A stretch of DNA of 64,000 bases from Bacteroidota bacterium. Its GTDB lineage: Bacteria > Bacteroidota > Bacteroidia > UKL13-3. A program made the position numbers and the translations under genes. The stretch covers positions 62,001 to 126,000 of the forward strand of contig JAIXWD010000007.1 in assembly GCA_027482225.1 (NCBI GenBank). The letters are read 5' to 3'. Positions 20,730 through 28,562 of this stretch are shown in pieces. The notes below the pieces were generated by a model. The model had not been told where the DNA came from. It saw only the letters and a program-made list of their open reading frames with translations, and did not search any database. How positions within the stretch are numbered: position 1 is the first letter of the stretch; the number at the start of each line of letters is the position of its first letter.

Positions 20730-20747
20730 ATGTTGCACATTTTATAA

Positions 20748-20785
20748 AAAAAACGCCTTCGATAAAATCTTCGAAGGCGTTTTTT
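20748..20785. terminator. Bidirectional terminator between convergent genes
   Basis: AAAAAACGCCTTCGA (20748-20762) pairs with TCGAAGGCGTTTTTT (20771-20785) around an 8-base loop. T-runs occur in both directions, so it should serve the dipeptidase gene and the seven-gene minus-strand operon. Confidence 0.92.
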
Positions 20786-20799
20786 ATGAAATAAATTTT

Positions 20800-21789
20800 C
20801 TAATCAAATCGCAACACTAGTGCACCGAAGCTAACACCTGCCCCCGAACCAAAGAGCAGGATGTTTTTATTTTTTATTTGTTTTTCCTCTTGGTAATAAT
20901 GCGCCAACCCCAAGGGAATACTCGCTGATATGCAGTTGCCGTATATGTTTAGTGTTTCAACAACTTTACTTTTATCAATACCAAAATGACTGATAAAATA
21001 TTCGTTTCCCATTTTACTGGTTTGATGCGTGATGATTTTATCAAACTCATTTAGCTTTAGTTGAGTTTGCGTCTCCAATTTTACTACAAATTCATCCAGA
21101 TGTTTAGTGGTTAATCGAAACAAGCTTTTACCTTTCATATGAAAATAATATCCCACATCAGAGGGTGAGGACATAATACCACGATTAATAGCACCACCTA
21201 TTGGAACATGAGCAAATAGAGCCCCGGATGGATAGTTAACAAAATCAATATATGATTGGCAGTACCCATTTTCGCTACTCTTTTCAAGAATAAGCGCGAC
21301 AGCTGCATCGCCAAATAGTCCGAATACTTTTTCATCGTGTGGTGATAATGCACGCGAAGAAACTTCAGCACACACTAAAGCAATAGTTTTATATCTACCC
21401 GATTCTAGGTACATATTCACTATGTCTAAAGCATTTAAAAAGCTTAAGCAAGTAGAGTTGATGTCTATACAATGAAAGTTGACTTGATCATCAGCAATTA
21501 AAGCTTTAATGATTGCAGAATTATGAGGAATGGGATAATCAAAGCTAGCACCTGAAAAGACTAAAAGATCTATTTCACCAACCTGCATATTGGCACTTTT
21601 TAATGCTTTTTTAAGTGCCTCAGCTCCTAATGTAGTAACTGATTCGTCACCTGAAATATGGTGTCTATATTCAACTCCAGTATACTTTTCAATTCTGCCC
21701 ATAAAACCATTTGCCAATTTATCCATGGTAGTTGAATGAATTCGGTTTTGAGGTAATTGAGTTTCTATAGCTCTGATATTTATGCTCAT
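20800..21789 (-). CDS. Beta-ketoacyl-ACP synthase III-like enzyme (last gene of putative biosynthetic operon)
   Basis: A 329-residue thiolase-fold condensing enzyme of the FabH/OleA/PqsD group. These enzymes join an acyl thioester to a malonyl or second acyl unit. The Cys-His-Asn triad is visible: DINSTCLSF (Cys114), IITHQTS and IYGNCISASIPLGLA. FGDAAVALIL and LLFGSGAGVSFGALVL match the family. Its start overlaps the upstream ligase gene by ATGA. Location as the seventh gene of an overlapping operon with oxygenase, reductase and ligase genes argues for secondary metabolism and not bulk fatty acid synthesis. No acyl carrier protein gene is nearby. Confidence 0.88.
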   Translation of the reverse strand: MSINIRAIETQLPQNRIHSTTMDKLANGFMGRIEKYTGVEYRHHISGDESVTTLGAEALKKALKSANMQVGEIDLLVFSGASFDYPIPHNSAIIKALIADDQVNFHCIDINSTCLSFLNALDIVNMYLESGRYKTIALVCAEVSSRALSPHDEKVFGLFGDAAVALILEKSSENGYCQSYIDFVNYPSGALFAHVPIGGAINRGIMSSPSDVGYYFHMKGKSLFRLTTKHLDEFVVKLETQTQLKLNEFDKIITHQTSKMGNEYFISHFGIDKSKVVETLNIYGNCISASIPLGLAHYYQEEKQIKNKNILLFGSGAGVSFGALVLRFD

Positions 21790-23066
21790 ATTGCTCTTAT
21801 TATTTTTCTGAGTTTGTTACCTGGTATTCTTACTTGCTGCATTTTAAATTCCAATAAAACACCATATATGCCATGCTCGTTTAATAGTTCAGTGATGGCT
21901 TTTTTAAAAGCATCTTGTGTTATTGCTCCAACTTTTTCCTCACATTCTAATTTAATTTCTAATGCTTGTTGTCCGATTTGTGTGATGGTATAGTTTTGAA
22001 AATTATTGGTTTGAATAGCTATTCTGCGTGCAATTAAATCTGGATAAATTTTTTGCTCATTTATTACCAAAATGTCATCATCTCTACCCATTATTTTTTC
22101 TAGTGCTAATAGAGGCGAACCGCAAGCGCATGAAGTAGATTTTATTTGTAGCACATCATTCAGTTTGTATTTTACAACCGGTTGACTTCTTCTAGAGAAA
22201 TCGGTGATAATGGGATAAAATTTATCATCATCAATCCATTCCTTTTCAAAACGAATAAAATCTTCATTTAAATGCATGGTTCCGTATTGGCAGGAAACGC
22301 CTAAAAAACCTTCAGTGCATTGATAAACTTCTGTAATACTGGATTGCAACTTTTGTGATATAAATGCTTTGTCGTGTGCATGTAACACCTCAGCAAATGA
22401 GATAATCTGATTAGGATTGATATGAATAATTTGTTGATGATGTGCTTGTGCTATATCAAACAATAAAGATGGTTGTGCCGCTAAAATATGTGGAGAGAAC
22501 GTATGAAGTTCTTGTAATAAATCTGATAGGGGTTTGAAAATATCGAAATACTTGAACTCAAATAATGAAGAGGATACAGATGTATATAAATTGCTATTAG
22601 CTCTCAAGAAGAAAGCGATTTTTTGTTTTTTGAATAAGCGAGGTTTAATAACACGCGACATGACTAATGCAACCCATAATGCTCTTTCGTTTTCAGATAC
22701 TAAAAACAAACCTCGTTTACCACTGGTTCCTGTTGATAAGCCTATCGTTATTCCATTCAATTCTTGGTTAAATGATCTGCTTGTTTCGGCATCCAACGCA
22801 ATTTGCATGGCATCATTCAGCTCTATTCCACATGTATTTATCTCATTAAAAGCATCCATAAATGTTGCCTTAGTAATGTGAGGCACTTTATTCCAATCCA
22901 TGTTTGGCTTTACGTATGGCTTGTAAAAAGGAGATTTTACCAGCACTTGTTCAGCAAAAAGCTGAAGTTGTTTTTGCTGATAAACTTCAATATGCTCTTG
23001 TGAAGAGAATACCGTTCTAATCTTTAGTTTAAGCCACTGAAAAACTATTTTAAGTTTAAATAACAC
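21786..23066 (-). CDS. Adenylate-forming ligase, PaaK/coenzyme F390 synthetase-like
   Basis: A 426-residue member of the CapK/PaaK branch of adenylate-forming enzymes, which activate a carboxylate with ATP and pass it to CoA or another nucleophile. The phosphate loop is GLSTGTSGKRG (about residue 108). VYQCTEGFLG, VVKYKLNDV and GRDDDILVI follow in family order. The end, IPGNKLRKIIRAI, may provide the C-terminal lysine. A cysteine pair (CACGSPLLAL) resembles zinc-binding loops in PaaK relatives. It overlaps the MBL hydrolase gene by 11 bases and the ketoacyl synthase by 4. Its substrate is unknown; in context it may prime the condensing enzyme. Confidence 0.78.
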   Translation of the reverse strand: MLFKLKIVFQWLKLKIRTVFSSQEHIEVYQQKQLQLFAEQVLVKSPFYKPYVKPNMDWNKVPHITKATFMDAFNEINTCGIELNDAMQIALDAETSRSFNQELNGITIGLSTGTSGKRGLFLVSENERALWVALVMSRVIKPRLFKKQKIAFFLRANSNLYTSVSSSLFEFKYFDIFKPLSDLLQELHTFSPHILAAQPSLLFDIAQAHHQQIIHINPNQIISFAEVLHAHDKAFISQKLQSSITEVYQCTEGFLGVSCQYGTMHLNEDFIRFEKEWIDDDKFYPIITDFSRRSQPVVKYKLNDVLQIKSTSCACGSPLLALEKIMGRDDDILVINEQKIYPDLIARRIAIQTNNFQNYTITQIGQQALEIKLECEEKVGAITQDAFKKAITELLNEHGIYGVLLEFKMQQVRIPGNKLRKIIRAI

Positions 23067-23898
23067 GTTGAGTATGATCTAATGTTTTTGGACAATGCGT
23101 GAATAAAATTTTAATGCCTTGGTGTGCAACTTCGTATGCTCTCAACTTATCAAGTGTTTCCGCATATTCATTCCAAGAGTCAAAGAATAACTTCACAATT
23201 TTACTTGGTAATATGCCTTGTTTAAAGCAATCGTAACTCCACGATGCATCGGTAGCATAAAGTATATGCTGATTGGATTGTTTTACTTCAAATCCTAACA
23301 TACCTTTGGCATGCCCGGGTAATAACAACAACTTAAAATCTTGAAGTCCCCATAATTGATATTCGGTTATACCGAAATTGTTTATATGAATTCGTTCTGC
23401 AATATCCTCTACATAGACTAGTCTTTTTTCATAGCCATTTGGTAATAAGCCATGCAAAATACCCTTACTTACTGCTTTAAAATTTTTAGTAGCTAATACC
23501 TCTTGGTGGGCTGATTTACTACAAATTATTTTTGCTTTTGGGAAATCTTTTAAACCCGCAATGTGGTCAGCGTGGAAGTGCGATAGAATAACATAGTCAA
23601 TATGATTTGGGGTAAGATTTAACTGTTGCAATATACTTGCAGCTGATTCCTTTTCATCAAGAAAAAAGGGCGTAACCCAACGATAAAATCGAGCAGGGAA
23701 CTTTATGGTGGCATCAGTAAAAGCACTGCTATAGCCAGTATCAAAAAGTATATTGCCAACTTGAGGTAGTTGAAGTAACGCCCAAACTGCGTAAAACTTA
23801 CATTTACCTTTTCCGTGCTTAGGGTTTACAATATTTTCATGCGAAACACAATAACCCGATTTAAAAAAGTGAACTTTTATCGATTCTGTTTGTGCCAT
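23056..23898 (-). CDS. Metallo-beta-lactamase-fold hydrolase (lactonase/thioesterase-like)
   Basis: A 280-residue hydrolase. The two-metal site motif is SHFHADH (His107, His109, Asp111, His112), with LPGHAKG, an ATDASW ligand region and FTHCP at the end. The arrangement is similar to AHL lactonases and to PqsE-type thioesterases. A role in releasing or opening a thioester or lactone would suit the ketoacyl synthase and ligase beside it. There is no signal peptide. It overlaps the upstream reductase gene by 22 bases and the downstream ligase by 11. Confidence 0.87.
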   Translation of the reverse strand: MAQTESIKVHFFKSGYCVSHENIVNPKHGKGKCKFYAVWALLQLPQVGNILFDTGYSSAFTDATIKFPARFYRWVTPFFLDEKESAASILQQLNLTPNHIDYVILSHFHADHIAGLKDFPKAKIICSKSAHQEVLATKNFKAVSKGILHGLLPNGYEKRLVYVEDIAERIHINNFGITEYQLWGLQDFKLLLLPGHAKGMLGFEVKQSNQHILYATDASWSYDCFKQGILPSKIVKLFFDSWNEYAETLDKLRAYEVAHQGIKILFTHCPKTLDHTQRVI

Positions 23899-24890
23899 AA
23901 TATAAATTCATTAATGCCCTCGTAAGTAGTCATAATTGGTTTGTAACGAAGTAGTTTATTTGCTTTTTCAATGCTAAGCGTGAAGCTATGACTCAATATA
24001 CCGATTCCGTATTTGGTGAGCGTTGGTTCTTTTTTAGAAAATAATTTTGCCTTTTGTTCCATTACTGTTGCAGCAAGATAGGCAAGTGCCTGGGGAACTT
24101 TACGTTCTACCGGCTCATAATCTAAAGAGGTAAGTGCGTAATTTACAGCATCCCAAAACTTAACATAAGCGCCATCGGTAATATTATAAGCCTCACCGTA
24201 TGCCTCATCGCTAGCTTGTAAAGCACAACTTATGGCTTCAATAACGTTGTATGCACAAGTCATATCGCACACATTTTGCCCATCACCAATAATACGTAAT
24301 CGATTTTGGTTGTAAGCTTCCAATACGCGTGGGAATATAACAGTATCCTCTGCTCCAATAATTGCTCTAGGTCTTAGTGCTATAGTTTTAAACTCAGCAT
24401 TATTTTGAGTTAATACAAATTGCTCGGCTTGTAGTTTGGTATCTGCATAAGCATTTACCATTTTTAAAGGTAAAGGGTCACTTTCTTTCACATCAAACCT
24501 ATCGGAGTGGTTAAAGTATATACTAGGGGTTGATATGAAAATGAATTTTTTCACTCCATTTTTTATACTTGAATTTAAAAGTGATTGAGTAGCCAATACA
24601 TTAGATTGATGAAAGTTATGGTAGTTACCAAATGGTGCAGATAAAGCAGCACAATGAACAACTGTATTTACTTGTTGTGTAATTTTATCGCAAAAATCGT
24701 TATCACACAAGTCTCCTGCTATAAATTCGCAGCCATGGTTTTCCAATTCAGTTTTTCGTTCTGTTCTTCTTGATGTGGTAATAACGGTGAATTGTTCATT
24801 GAGTTTAGCAAAATGCTTGGCAACTCTTCCTCCCAAAAAGCCAGCTGCTCCAGTAATTAAAATCTTATTCTTCATATTACCAATATACAT
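23877..24890 (-). CDS. NAD(P)-dependent extended SDR (3-beta-HSD/OleD-like)
   Basis: A 337-residue Rossmann-fold reductase or epimerase. The dinucleotide motif is ITGAAGFLGGRVA near the start, VHCAALSAPFG is the structural motif, and YADTK contains the Tyr-x-x-x-Lys pair. The segment FISTPSIYFN and the RPRAIIGAEDTVIFPR region resemble 3-beta-hydroxysteroid dehydrogenase and OleD-type 2-alkyl-3-ketoacid reductases. The start may be the ATG at 24890 or at 24875 (MKNKILITG). The first overlaps the Rieske gene by 14 bases; the second lies just past its stop. In context it may reduce the beta-keto product of the condensing enzyme. Confidence 0.85.
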   Translation of the reverse strand: MYIGNMKNKILITGAAGFLGGRVAKHFAKLNEQFTVITTSRRTERKTELENHGCEFIAGDLCDNDFCDKITQQVNTVVHCAALSAPFGNYHNFHQSNVLATQSLLNSSIKNGVKKFIFISTPSIYFNHSDRFDVKESDPLPLKMVNAYADTKLQAEQFVLTQNNAEFKTIALRPRAIIGAEDTVIFPRVLEAYNQNRLRIIGDGQNVCDMTCAYNVIEAISCALQASDEAYGEAYNITDGAYVKFWDAVNYALTSLDYEPVERKVPQALAYLAATVMEQKAKLFSKKEPTLTKYGIGILSHSFTLSIEKANKLLRYKPIMTTYEGINEFILWHKQNR

Positions 24891-25848
24891 TAAATGTTAC
24901 CTCATTTGGAAGCTCATGGTTCTTGGCATTTTGCCAAGCATAAATGTACTTACCTACCATGTCTGTCTCATCAGTTACAAACTTTTTTTCATTAAATAAA
25001 CGTAGATTTTGCTGTTGTAACTCTAGTATATTTTTATCTTGTTCTATGATACGTTTAAATAAGAAACGAGCAAAGGGCTTCACCAAAAATCCTAGTGGCC
25101 CAATATGCAAGTATACTCTTGCTGAATAATGAATATGATCTTCCTTGTTACTCAAAATAGCTTCGAATCGAGCTACCTCTTTTTGTTCGTGATTGATATA
25201 AGTAAGTATGGCTACACCTGAATGTAAATATGTGGAAACCGGTTTTAATGAACGATACTTTTTGGGTAGAAGTTTCGTTATTAAACCTTTTGCTGGCTCA
25301 CTTTGGTAGGTAACGTTAAAGCCACTGGTTGTTTGAATTAGTTTTGCGTTAATTTGATGTCGCTTTTTATTTTTTGTTCTTACCAAACCATTGTGCACGT
25401 AGTGTGTATGACTACCTTCTAAAAAATTTTCCAACACATGAGTCATCTCTGCATTTATCTTACCCGTAAGGTAAATATGAGCTTTATTAGGAGTTAACTC
25501 AGGTATCAATGCATCAGGTTGTGTGCTTAACCAAATCTGCTCATACTGTTCTTTAACATGAAGAGGTTTTAGTTTACATGAGACCTTATTATTTTTAACA
25601 GGAACGAATGTGTTTTCTCCATTCGCAATACTGAAACTCCAACCATGATATTTGCAATGCAGTTGATTATCATGGAAAAAACCTTTCGATAGGGCCAAAC
25701 CACGGTGAGGACAAAAATCCTCGTATGCAGTAATCTTCGATTGTGTTTTAATTAATACTATTGGAATATCATTAAGCCATACTCGAGTTGGCTTATTTGG
25801 CAACAAGCTTTTAACACTAATAACCGGGGTATAATAATCAGAGCTCAT
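24877..25848 (-). CDS. Rieske non-heme iron oxygenase (alpha-subunit type)
   Basis: A 323-residue oxygenase. The Rieske [2Fe-2S] motif is CPHRG..CKYHGW (Cys46, His48, Cys65, His68). The catalytic iron site is seen as ENFLEGSHTHYVH, with His147 and His152; the usual bridging Asp of the NxxDxxH motif is replaced by Glu144. The third ligand is probably in the EQDKNILELQQQN segment. Such enzymes hydroxylate, demethylate or desaturate using an external ferredoxin/reductase, which is not encoded here. It overlaps the GNAT-like gene by 11 bases. Confidence 0.88.
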   Translation of the reverse strand: MSSDYYTPVISVKSLLPNKPTRVWLNDIPIVLIKTQSKITAYEDFCPHRGLALSKGFFHDNQLHCKYHGWSFSIANGENTFVPVKNNKVSCKLKPLHVKEQYEQIWLSTQPDALIPELTPNKAHIYLTGKINAEMTHVLENFLEGSHTHYVHNGLVRTKNKKRHQINAKLIQTTSGFNVTYQSEPAKGLITKLLPKKYRSLKPVSTYLHSGVAILTYINHEQKEVARFEAILSNKEDHIHYSARVYLHIGPLGFLVKPFARFLFKRIIEQDKNILELQQQNLRLFNEKKFVTDETDMVGKYIYAWQNAKNHELPNEVTFNVYW

Positions 25849-26956
25849 ATTTTTGGGTTAAAGGAATTCCTATTTTGTTTGAAACGAAAATGAGAAAATA
25901 CCAAACTACCTTTCGATAGCTTGGTAGATGTCTTAGATAAATTACAGAGTATTCAACGTATGGTACTCCGCCTCTAAATCGCTTAAATTGTGATGCACCT
26001 GAACTTAGATTTAAAATCTTACCACTTTCAAATTTGTATTTGAATATAAGGTTGATGGCATGTATGTATAGGCCATCTTTTTGCGGGCTATTGGTATCAT
26101 AACCAACCAGAGGAGAAGTTATGGTTTGATCAAGAATAAACAAACCAGAGAATGCTCTAAGTTTACCTTGTTCATCTGCATAGCCTTGAAAATGCATAAG
26201 TTGATTCTGATGACTTGCTTGGAAATATTTTATACTGAATTGCGGATTGTATTTAGAGTATTTTTTGAGGTATAATAAATTATATAGTGCTAACGCCTCA
26301 TCCAAATAATTACCCATTTCTTGATGGGATAGGTACCTTAGTTTTTGCTTTTTTATGAGCCTTAAGTCGTTTTTGTTATTGTTATGTTTGAGCCAACTTT
26401 CGTAAGGCATTGCATATATATAAACTTGTCGGCTGCCAACTTTATGGTACCCGTTTACTTCAAATGAGTTGATTAGGTTTTGATGTTGTTTTAAATTCAA
26501 CGACCGGAAAATAATAGCATGTTTAGGATACTTTAGCAGAATAGCATCTGTGATCTCAGTTATTTCTTTACCATCCCATTCTTGATAAGGATTTGTAGAT
26601 AACAGGAAATTATTGACGTGTACATTACGGTCGATACGCCCGATTTTAAATAAAAGTCCGAGCAGTTTTATAATCCATAAAACGGAATACTGAAGTAACT
26701 TATTCGGCACCTTAGCCTTCAACTCGTCTTGAGCATATAATGCGTATGCGGTGTATGGCGAACAAACAAAAGAGTTTTCAATTGCAGCATCATTTATTGT
26801 AGTAGTAAACAATAAATGCTCGTTTACTTGTAATGTTTCTAATTGTGTAGATACATTATGAATAAGTTCACAAGATGGTACATGAGCGAACATGGTGGCA
26901 AATTTTTTATGCAAACCATCAGGTAATTCATGATATGATAACCATTTAATTGCCAT
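25838..26956 (-). CDS. GNAT/Fem-like acyltransferase of unknown substrate
   Basis: A 372-residue protein with no signal peptide. The C-terminal half looks like a GNAT-fold acyltransferase of the FemAB type: a DEQGKLRAFSGLFIL strand, HAINLIFKYKFESGK, then NLSSGASQFKRFRGG and EYSVIYLRHLPSYRK. The N-terminal half is less clear and includes a hydrophobic helix (VLWIIKLLGLLFKIG). FemAB relatives transfer aminoacyl or acyl groups to amines. Overlaps by 11 bases on each side with the ATP-grasp and Rieske genes fix it in the operon. Specific function is unknown. Confidence 0.65.
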   Translation of the reverse strand: MAIKWLSYHELPDGLHKKFATMFAHVPSCELIHNVSTQLETLQVNEHLLFTTTINDAAIENSFVCSPYTAYALYAQDELKAKVPNKLLQYSVLWIIKLLGLLFKIGRIDRNVHVNNFLLSTNPYQEWDGKEITEITDAILLKYPKHAIIFRSLNLKQHQNLINSFEVNGYHKVGSRQVYIYAMPYESWLKHNNNKNDLRLIKKQKLRYLSHQEMGNYLDEALALYNLLYLKKYSKYNPQFSIKYFQASHQNQLMHFQGYADEQGKLRAFSGLFILDQTITSPLVGYDTNSPQKDGLYIHAINLIFKYKFESGKILNLSSGASQFKRFRGGVPYVEYSVIYLRHLPSYRKVVWYFLIFVSNKIGIPLTQKYEL

Positions 26957-28031
26957 TCCATTCTATATCAGAAGTAGTAGCCTCCAACCAACTTGTCTTT
27001 TTGGTAAACTTATTGTAAGTAATTTCAAACAAGGAAATCACTTGCAAGAAAAATGGCTTCAAGTCACGCCATCTGAATATGGTATCATCGGCTTTTATTA
27101 CTCTATTTTTTGCCAATGAAAATGGATGAAGTAAGAATAAGGCATATTTAATTGCAAATTCTTTCATAATATCAACTTGCACAAAGGTGTTGTCCAAAAA
27201 GGCTGAAGCCAATTGCTTATTTAATAAATGAGCACCACTTGTTCCTCTTGGATTACACTCGATAAAATAGTGCTTTTGTTGTTGGTCAACAATCACATCA
27301 AAACATAGTTGACCATGATAGCGAATGGTTTCTCCGAATTTTTTTACATCGTTATATACATTTTCGTATTGAACTGGCTCGAAAAATATACCGGCACCTT
27401 TACCTGCCCTATATAAAGGATGATAAGCAGCAAACGCTTTTAAAACGCCATGCTCCCAAATACTGTAAATGCAAATTTCTTTTCCGTCAATAAACTCTTG
27501 GGCCACCCATTTTTGCTTTTCTTCCTCTTTTAAAAAAGTTGGTTCAACCACTTTTTTTATGAGCACTGAATTAGCAAATCGGGAGTATACTGGTTTAAGA
27601 ACACAGTTTTTTGTTGAGCTCCAATCGGTTAAATCACTTAATAAAATGGTCTTAGGGAAGGGCAGTAAATGATTAAATCGTTTAACAAACTCATATTTAT
27701 TATGCAATTGGATCATCAAATCGTGCTCAGCAGTCCAAACTTTGCAAGGCAAAACGTTTCGGTATGCGGAGATGAATAAGGCCTCTTCGCAAGTTGGTAT
27801 TAAGTGATCAACTTTCTCATGTAGTATAATTTGTTGTAACGATTTTAAAAAACCTTCTGGATTAAATCTTGGAGAAGGAACTGTATAATATTTGTCAACA
27901 CAATTAGACCACCTTGCAATAGTTAGGTGTTGACAGTCAATCATAATCACGCGATGTTTTTCACCTTTAAAGCTACGTGCCATCTCTAAAGCAATTGGAG
28001 CTCTTGCGCCACTGATTAGCACAGTTTTCAT
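26946..28031 (-). CDS. ATP-grasp family ligase (first gene of putative biosynthetic operon)
   Basis: A 361-residue ATP-grasp protein, the class that joins a carboxylate to an amine, thiol or other nucleophile through an acyl phosphate. The N-terminal Rossmann-like segment (VLISGARAPIALEMARSF) resembles carbamoyl phosphate synthase-like ATP-grasp enzymes. The ATP-binding region runs through KNCVLKPVYSR and WVAQEFIDGKEICIYS. The metal-binding end is HYFIECNPRGTSGAHLL. The C-terminal 80 residues are hydrophobic and basic and may touch the membrane. It is the promoter-proximal gene of the seven-gene run, with about 530 non-coding bases upstream. Confidence 0.8.
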   Translation of the reverse strand: MKTVLISGARAPIALEMARSFKGEKHRVIMIDCQHLTIARWSNCVDKYYTVPSPRFNPEGFLKSLQQIILHEKVDHLIPTCEEALFISAYRNVLPCKVWTAEHDLMIQLHNKYEFVKRFNHLLPFPKTILLSDLTDWSSTKNCVLKPVYSRFANSVLIKKVVEPTFLKEEEKQKWVAQEFIDGKEICIYSIWEHGVLKAFAAYHPLYRAGKGAGIFFEPVQYENVYNDVKKFGETIRYHGQLCFDVIVDQQQKHYFIECNPRGTSGAHLLNKQLASAFLDNTFVQVDIMKEFAIKYALFLLHPFSLAKNRVIKADDTIFRWRDLKPFFLQVISLFEITYNKFTKKTSWLEATTSDIEWNGN

Positions 28032-28562
28032 TTGTTCAATAGGTTTTAATTTAGGGATATAATGTATTATACAATTTTATTAATTTTTCTTAATTTTTAA
28101 AGTTTGAATGTCCTTGATTGAATATTTTAATAAGTATTTTAAAAAGTTGTTAGTGAAAAAATAAGTTCTGTGCAGCAAAAAAATTAAATAAATGGAATAA
28201 CTTAATTGTTTTAACTTATCTGTTGTGCAAATAATTAGATTATCTGAACCCTGCTTCACTTTTAAAATCTTTCTTAGCATTCACTGTTAAATAACCTTGT
28301 AAAGTATAACATTAGTTTTCATTCTTGTAAAAAGTGTTGGTACTTAATAGAAGACGAGAATTATTTTGATTGCCAATAATTATTTGGTTATGAACATTGT
28401 TTAATTGTACACATATGTCTTTTTCTAAACAATCTTTGGTTGAGTTATTTATGATGCTTTGAATGAAACTATAGTTAAATACATAGAGGACTTAATTGCG
28501 GGTTCAAACTCTCGTTACTATGGCTTTAATTGTGGTGCTTTTTATCTAAAATTACATTATGT
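28032..28562. other. Intergenic leader region of the biosynthetic operon
   Basis: About 530 bases with no recognised gene. A 66-codon minus frame (28080-28280) has no family resemblance and lacks a ribosome site. ATTGTTTA (28396-28403) and TAAACAAT (28426-28433) form a perfect inverted repeat that could be an operator. The operon promoter must lie here, but I could not find a good TAnnTTTG box on the minus strand. Confidence 0.4.

Follow-up and report, generated by a model that had tools for sequence, protein, structure and literature searches.

Organization of the operon

The window, by which we mean the whole stretch of 64,000 nucleotides that was analyzed, belongs to a genome of 2.72 Mb (24 contigs, completeness 99.9%) and carries, between positions 20800 and 28031, seven intact ORFs that all lie on the minus strand (Table 1). 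In transcription order, successive genes overlap by 11, 11, 14, 22, 11, and 4 nt, and placing the start of the short-chain dehydrogenase/reductase (SDR) at its second Met turns the 14-nt overlap into a 1-nt gap. These ORF coordinates agree with the original prediction, which had described seven minus-strand genes with overlaps of 4–22 bases and one junction that is either a 14-base overlap or a 1-base gap, depending on start choice.

Table 1. Features of the operon and its borders (positions in the window)
Feature	Position	Strand	Remarks
ATP-grasp carboxylate-amine ligase-like protein (PRK06849/NF005315-like)	26946..28031	-	first gene; tailoring module
Putative Fem/MprF-like double-GNAT transferase	25838..26956	-	tailoring module
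Rieske non-haem iron oxygenase	24877..25848	-	tailoring module
Extended SDR, 3-beta-HSD/OleD-like reductase	23877..24890	-	core
MBL-fold hydrolase, AHL-lactonase/pyridoxolactonase branch	23056..23898	-	core
PaaK-type adenylate-forming enzyme, TIGR02304 'F390 synthetase-related'	21786..23066	-	core
Ketoacyl synthase III (KAS III)	20800..21789	-	core; last gene
Bidirectional intrinsic terminator	20740..20795	both strands	hairpin visible in sequence; folding vs shuffles
AT-rich intergenic region, 531 bp; presumed promoter region	28032..28562	-	upstream of operon, up to next minus-strand gene

The hairpin that closes the operon sits between the KAS III gene and a convergent M20 peptidase gene, and its folding energy of -21 to -24 kcal/mol on either strand (z about -7.3 to -7.6 against shuffles, on both strands) bears out the strong bidirectional terminator that had been proposed. 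At the other end, a search of the presumed promoter region returned consensus promoter-like matches only, not above shuffle level. The GC content of the operon (0.349, versus 0.352 for the window) gives no sign of foreign origin, and the operon has no dedicated carrier protein gene.

Catalytic residues of the seven enzymes

Profile matches and alignments confirmed the folds and catalytic motifs of the enzyme families originally named. In the core, both Pfam halves of KAS III score above cut-off and the Cys114/His255/Asn285 triad is unchanged across 32 homologues. The SDR matches PF01073 at 132 bits, and its catalytic pair, Tyr148/Lys152, is intact and kept in the homologue alignment; its best NCBIfam matches are OleD models (190.7 bits, far under the cut-off of 580). 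The MBL hydrolase scores above cut-off for PF00753, with AttM/AiiA-like matches below the equivalog cut-off. Its metal ligands (H107xH109xD111H112 together with H196, D217, and H268) are kept as a complete set in 33 homologues, and its nearest solved relatives are lactonases.

The adenylating enzyme passes TIGR02304 with 419.7 bits over 421 residues (cut-off 251.9), and its STGTSG loop, GRDDD motif, and Lys418 are kept in the homologue alignment. Its predicted structure (pLDDT 87) finds PaaK-family ligases in Foldseek with E about 2e-20, the structural matches including the PaaK-family natural-product ligases AjiA1, NatL2, and ClxA. The nearest solved relatives of this enzyme include aryl-acid ligases.

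Among the three remaining proteins, the ATP-grasp protein carries an ATP-grasp_3 domain above the Pfam cut-off, reaches 307 bits against NF005315 (below the cut-off of 406), and has zero matches among PDB sequences. The Rieske protein matches PF00355 at 59.5 bits, plus VanA_C; its mononuclear-iron ligands His147/His152/Asp271 are kept among the aligned homologues, and its nearest PDB relatives are SxtDIOX/SxtT. A Pfam search with the transferase itself gave no match, its homologues match Acetyltransf_6, and its profile yielded only spurious matches among PDB sequences. We retain, via the homologues, the GNAT part of the GNAT/Fem-like assignment that had been made, and refine the Fem-like part on the basis of a predicted structure of moderate confidence (pLDDT 72, built from 5 sequences). 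The top Foldseek matches of this model are the MprF C-terminal domain, FemX, and an aminoacyl-tRNA-dependent peptide synthase (E 2e-7 to 1e-6, TM 0.41–0.58), and the model tentatively suggests a double-GNAT transferase of the MprF/FemX type. The structure predictions drew on sequences of the window and of genome loci, leaving plasmid-derived ones out.

A conserved four-gene core

We surveyed 42 loci outside the window that were picked solely for a TIGR02304-type gene. The quartet of KAS III, SDR, MBL hydrolase, and TIGR02304 enzyme occurs together in 36 of them and, since the loci were chosen by the adenylating gene alone, this clustering goes beyond chance. The loci with the core span Bacteroidota, Pseudomonadota (Alpha-, Beta-, and Gammaproteobacteria), Bacillota, and Fusobacteriota, so that the four genes form a core in fixed association across at least four phyla. 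In Fusobacterium and most Bacteroidota the genes run SDR-MBL-F390-KAS; other lineages have the arrangement KAS-SDR-MBL-F390 or KAS-ATPgrasp-SDR-MBL-F390. The exceptions are one locus in which the contig edge falls right after the adenylating gene (L005), three lone paralogues of this gene (L044–L046), and two Pseudomonas megaplasmids with a partial set (L059, L060). The core is also co-inherited: pairwise protein distances for the four core proteins in 32 loci correlate with r = 0.91–0.96, the best of 1000 permutations reaching 0.33. An adenylating enzyme 94% identical to that of the window lies in the locus of a Bacteroidetes MAG, and a control search found a TIGR02304 match above cut-off in Deinobacterium chartae, known from that protein alone.

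Exchangeable tailoring modules

All seven genes occur together on plasmids of Rhizobium sp. BT03, Shinella zoogloeoides, and Roseateles sp. XES5, in all three with the ATP-grasp gene on the opposite strand, and again on a plasmid of Paraburkholderia sp. PREW-6R, in which the Rieske gene is frameshifted. A further locus (L006) holds the seven genes plus a carbamoyltransferase, and Paenibacillus urinalis has six of the seven. Homologues of the ATP-grasp protein adjoin the core in L005, L006, L014, L018, L050, L058, L061, L066, L067, and L068. The same set thus recurs in distant genomes, as the neighborhood check attached to the original prediction had called for, and the recurrence of the seven genes as neighbors in Alpha- and Betaproteobacteria, together with that of the core in four phyla, upholds the proposal of a dedicated, uncharacterized biosynthetic operon. 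That seven overlapping genes form a real pathway operon is well supported.

Other loci join the core to other genes. In E. coli and Burkholderia stagnalis, the partners are a PAP2 protein, a fatty-acid hydroxylase, and an acyl-CoA desaturase; elsewhere, they are a fatty-acid hydroxylase alone, a DUF3419 (BtaA-like) protein with or without a GNAT, a sulfotransferase, a carbamoyltransferase with a glycosyltransferase, or a GT21 with an SDR. The hydroxylase partner matches OlsE weakly, at about 67 bits against 475. Some loci hold the core alone, which indicates that a module is not always nearby, and in one genome (G253) ATP-grasp, GNAT, and Rieske genes form an operon of their own, about 29 kb from its core. 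The seven-gene set is therefore divisible into a fixed four-gene core and one of several exchangeable modules, of which ATP-grasp, GNAT, and Rieske are one. The earlier view of a full tool set for one product stands in that the genes recur together, but not as an indivisible unit.

Distribution of the cluster

The distribution of the cluster is patchy. A strong TIGR02304 match is found in 5 of 64 genomes of the family and in 6 of 396 genomes of the phylum. Of 345 genomes sampled from the class, 5 have the GNAT, 8 have the core adenylating gene, and 4 have both. With the window genome left out, the hypergeometric p of this co-occurrence is about 2e-5, a value that treats genomes as independent draws, which they are not. 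In three of the four shared genomes, the two genes lie apart, by the distance given above in G253, by about 277 kb in G725, and by more than 2 Mb in G726.

Within the genus, the operon is present in the window genome and in two others (G060 and G061), the adenylating gene of G061 being missed because the contigs end inside the cluster. A further genome (G054) has flanking proteins 95–97% identical to those of the window with unrelated genes between the two flanks, which indicates that a genome has either the entire cluster or none of it. A version is carried by 674 of the 5,426 complete E. coli genomes (about one in eight); in one record, it is located between narI and the tyrT region. The asymptomatic E. 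coli strain ABU 83972 is a carrier.

Proposed pathway and alternative explanations

A lipid-like or amide-type molecule, as yet undescribed, is the probable product of the operon. The original prediction had named a lipid- or amide-type metabolite, which fits the tailoring enzymes of the relatives; the product itself, like the substrates and the order of steps, we infer from the enzyme types. In our preferred reading, which we hold with as much doubt as conviction, the core would make and activate an acyl scaffold, and the module would add an amino acid or amine to it and oxidize the result, a lipid-like molecule that contains the amino acid or amine. KAS III would form a beta-keto unit by condensing malonyl with an acyl starter, the SDR would reduce the keto group to a hydroxyl, and the MBL enzyme would release the free acid by hydrolysis of a thioester or lactone. 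This acid may then be re-activated for transfer by the adenylating enzyme, which may instead supply the starter. The ATP-grasp ligase, the MprF/FemX-like transferase, and the Rieske oxygenase would attach the amino acid or amine and oxidize the product. In other bacteria, other modules would leave the scaffold sulfated, carbamoylated, glycosylated, dephosphorylated, hydroxylated, desaturated, or aminocarboxypropylated. A lipid-like scaffold with a hydroxyl is argued for by the partner enzymes of other lineages, whose targets are lipids or hydroxyls. Points against this reading are the lack of a dedicated carrier protein gene, the moderate confidence of the GNAT model, and the loci in which the core stands alone.

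The product could also be aryl or diffusible, given that the closest solved relatives are lactonases for the MBL enzyme and include aryl-acid ligases for the adenylating enzyme. Here, the operon would encode a PqsABCDE-like signal or a small aromatic/polyketide pathway: the PaaK-type enzyme would provide a starter (perhaps an aryl-CoA), KAS III would extend it with malonyl, the MBL enzyme would act as thioesterase, and the SDR would reduce. The enzyme types are those of PqsA, PqsD, and PqsE, PqsD is among the KAS III relatives in the PDB, and the structural matches to AjiA1, NatL2, and ClxA point the same way. However, PQS members are not the top matches, PqsE is absent from the MBL matches at E <= 1e-5, and the partners in relatives are of lipid type (fatty-acid hydroxylase, acyl-CoA desaturase, PAP2, GT21). 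We consider such a diffusible product unlikely.

The best model matches of the SDR, which are to OleD, prompted us to consider OleABCD-like chemistry. In a non-homologous version of that pathway, KAS III would join two acyl chains head to head and the SDR would reduce the product, leading to an olefin or a 2-alkyl-3-hydroxy acid; a beta-lactone might be closed by the adenylating enzyme and opened by the MBL enzyme, which is of lactonase type. All four enzyme roles can be aligned with OleA-D. We nevertheless rank this explanation low, as an improbable one, on account of the KAS site: at the position aligned to the second-subunit base of OleA, which we take to be Glu117 (the numbering is matched by the alignment offset), KAS III has Ile87/Pro88, and 32 homologues have no Glu or Asp there. 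Moreover, the OleD score lies well below its cut-off, and OleB- and OleC-type proteins are absent from the operon, the Pfam search of the seven proteins giving no alpha/beta hydrolase or AMP-binding PF00501 match.

Rieske, SDR, MBL, and PaaK-like proteins are also known from degradation pathways, and all four are confirmed members of the operon, which could thus degrade a lactone or aromatic compound. We regard a catabolic cluster of this kind as very unlikely, since the operon also encodes anabolic proteins (KAS III, ATP-grasp, and Fem-like), neither the ORF list nor Pfam places a transporter, regulator, beta-oxidation, or ring-cleavage gene in it, and genes for a sulfotransferase, a carbamoyltransferase, and a glycosyltransferase occur in relatives. 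Finally, the adenylating gene is solitary in a few loci, but the recurrence of the quartet, the seven-gene sets in Alpha- and Betaproteobacteria, and the correlated distances rule out, to a near certainty, that unrelated genes lie side by side by chance.

Returning to an acyl scaffold carrying an amino acid or amine, we propose, more tentatively still, that the core may be the scaffold maker for an unrecognized, modular family of bacterial lipids in at least four phyla, with amino-acid, sulfate, carbamoyl, sugar, and homoserine-type variants, one version of which, carried by roughly an eighth of the complete E. coli genomes, would lie beside narI. The core has a wide range and a patchy inheritance, and its hosts include well-studied, genetically tractable bacteria such as E. 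coli and Rhizobium. Once identified, the product would account for hundreds of clusters together, and the variety of modules would reveal how one scaffold is diversified. The E. coli strains that carry the cluster make the product question directly testable, both genetically and by lipidomics.

Comparison with known systems

In open-access full text, we found no description of the cluster, and those papers naming F390 synthetase that we read are about individual genes, lists of genes, or a different lipid pathway. Novelty is provisional, being judged against this open-access literature. That the set was not recognized as any named pathway is borne out for OleABCD, PqsABCDE, and ornithine-lipid synthesis, whose defining features were tested and not found here. 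The adenylating enzyme scores above the family cut-off of TIGR02304 (NCBIfam aden_form_hyp), but this is the name of a protein family alone and covers neither the cluster nor a product.

With OleABCD, the operon shares a KAS-type condensing enzyme, an OleD-like SDR, an AMP-forming enzyme, and a hydrolase; here, however, the adenylating enzyme is PaaK-type, the hydrolase is MBL-type, and the KAS is without the OleA Glu. Like PqsABCDE, it combines an adenylating ligase, a FabH-like synthase, and an MBL hydrolase in one operon, but SDR, Rieske, ATP-grasp, and Fem-like genes are present in addition. None of the seven proteins matches a PQS family model above cut-off, and genes for a PqsBC heterodimer and for a PqsE-type MBL are absent from the operon, which has one KAS III gene and an MBL enzyme with lactonases as best matches.

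Ornithine- and glycine-type aminolipid synthesis runs through OlsB/OlsA and GlsB/GlsA (review PMC11631085). The two systems would have in common a GNAT-superfamily transferase and a 3-hydroxyacyl scaffold, the latter made here by a dedicated KAS III; neither OlsB-type N-acyltransferase nor PlsC-type O-acyltransferase domains occur in the seven proteins. Judged by its moderate-confidence model, the transferase may resemble the aminoacyl-tRNA-dependent MprF/FemX enzymes in a double-GNAT fold; identity is 9–16%, with no match at the sequence level. As far as it is described where cited in PMC11631085, an ATP-grasp enzyme of Legionella serves acyl-histidine synthesis; likened by this description of activity only, the coupling of a fatty acid to an amino acid would be a plausible role for the first gene of the operon.

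A second seven-gene set built on the core

Besides the operon in the window, in which the core of KAS III (KAS), SDR, MBL hydrolase (MBL) and TIGR02304 PaaK-type adenylating enzyme (F390) carries ATP-grasp, Fem/MprF-like GNAT and Rieske genes, we find a second conserved seven-gene set, with the order KAS-SDR-MBL-F390-PAP2-fatty-acid hydroxylase-acyl-CoA desaturase. This version is present in 674 of the 5,426 complete E. coli genomes, and is found again in Burkholderia stagnalis (L015). In the one E. coli record read, the cluster lies between narI on one side and the tyrT region on the other.

Coordinates of features in the comparison loci
Locus	Positions	Feature	Source
L055	4001-10882	KAS-SDR-MBL-F390-PAP2-fatty-acid hydroxylase-acyl-CoA desaturase set	E. 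coli NRG 857C
L013	6203-13084	KAS-SDR-MBL-F390-PAP2-fatty-acid hydroxylase-acyl-CoA desaturase set	
L096	4124-9727	Unrelated genes in place of the window operon, at its chromosomal position	G054, close relative in the same genus as the window genome
L058	9560-10700	Rieske gene divided by a frameshift	Paraburkholderia plasmid copy of the cluster
L053	11052-12281	PARP-domain protein gene (WGR match) near the core	One Bacteroidota genome

Sites and neighbouring genes

In both G054 and the window genome, the operon site is bounded by M20 peptidase and permease genes. The frameshift in the Paraburkholderia Rieske gene may reflect either a pseudogene or a sequencing error.

Three core-bearing Bacteroidota genomes encode an extra, lone TIGR02304-type gene (L044, L045 and L046; ~235-270 bits), in a neighbourhood that is common to all three and different from that of the core. 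In two related Pseudomonas megaplasmids (L059, L060), the adenylating gene is accompanied by only a partial core. Finally, a DUF3419 (BtaA-like) gene adjoins or lies near the Fem-like GNAT gene in four loci, the pair having no core nearby in L076 and L077 and adjoining one in L064 and L065.
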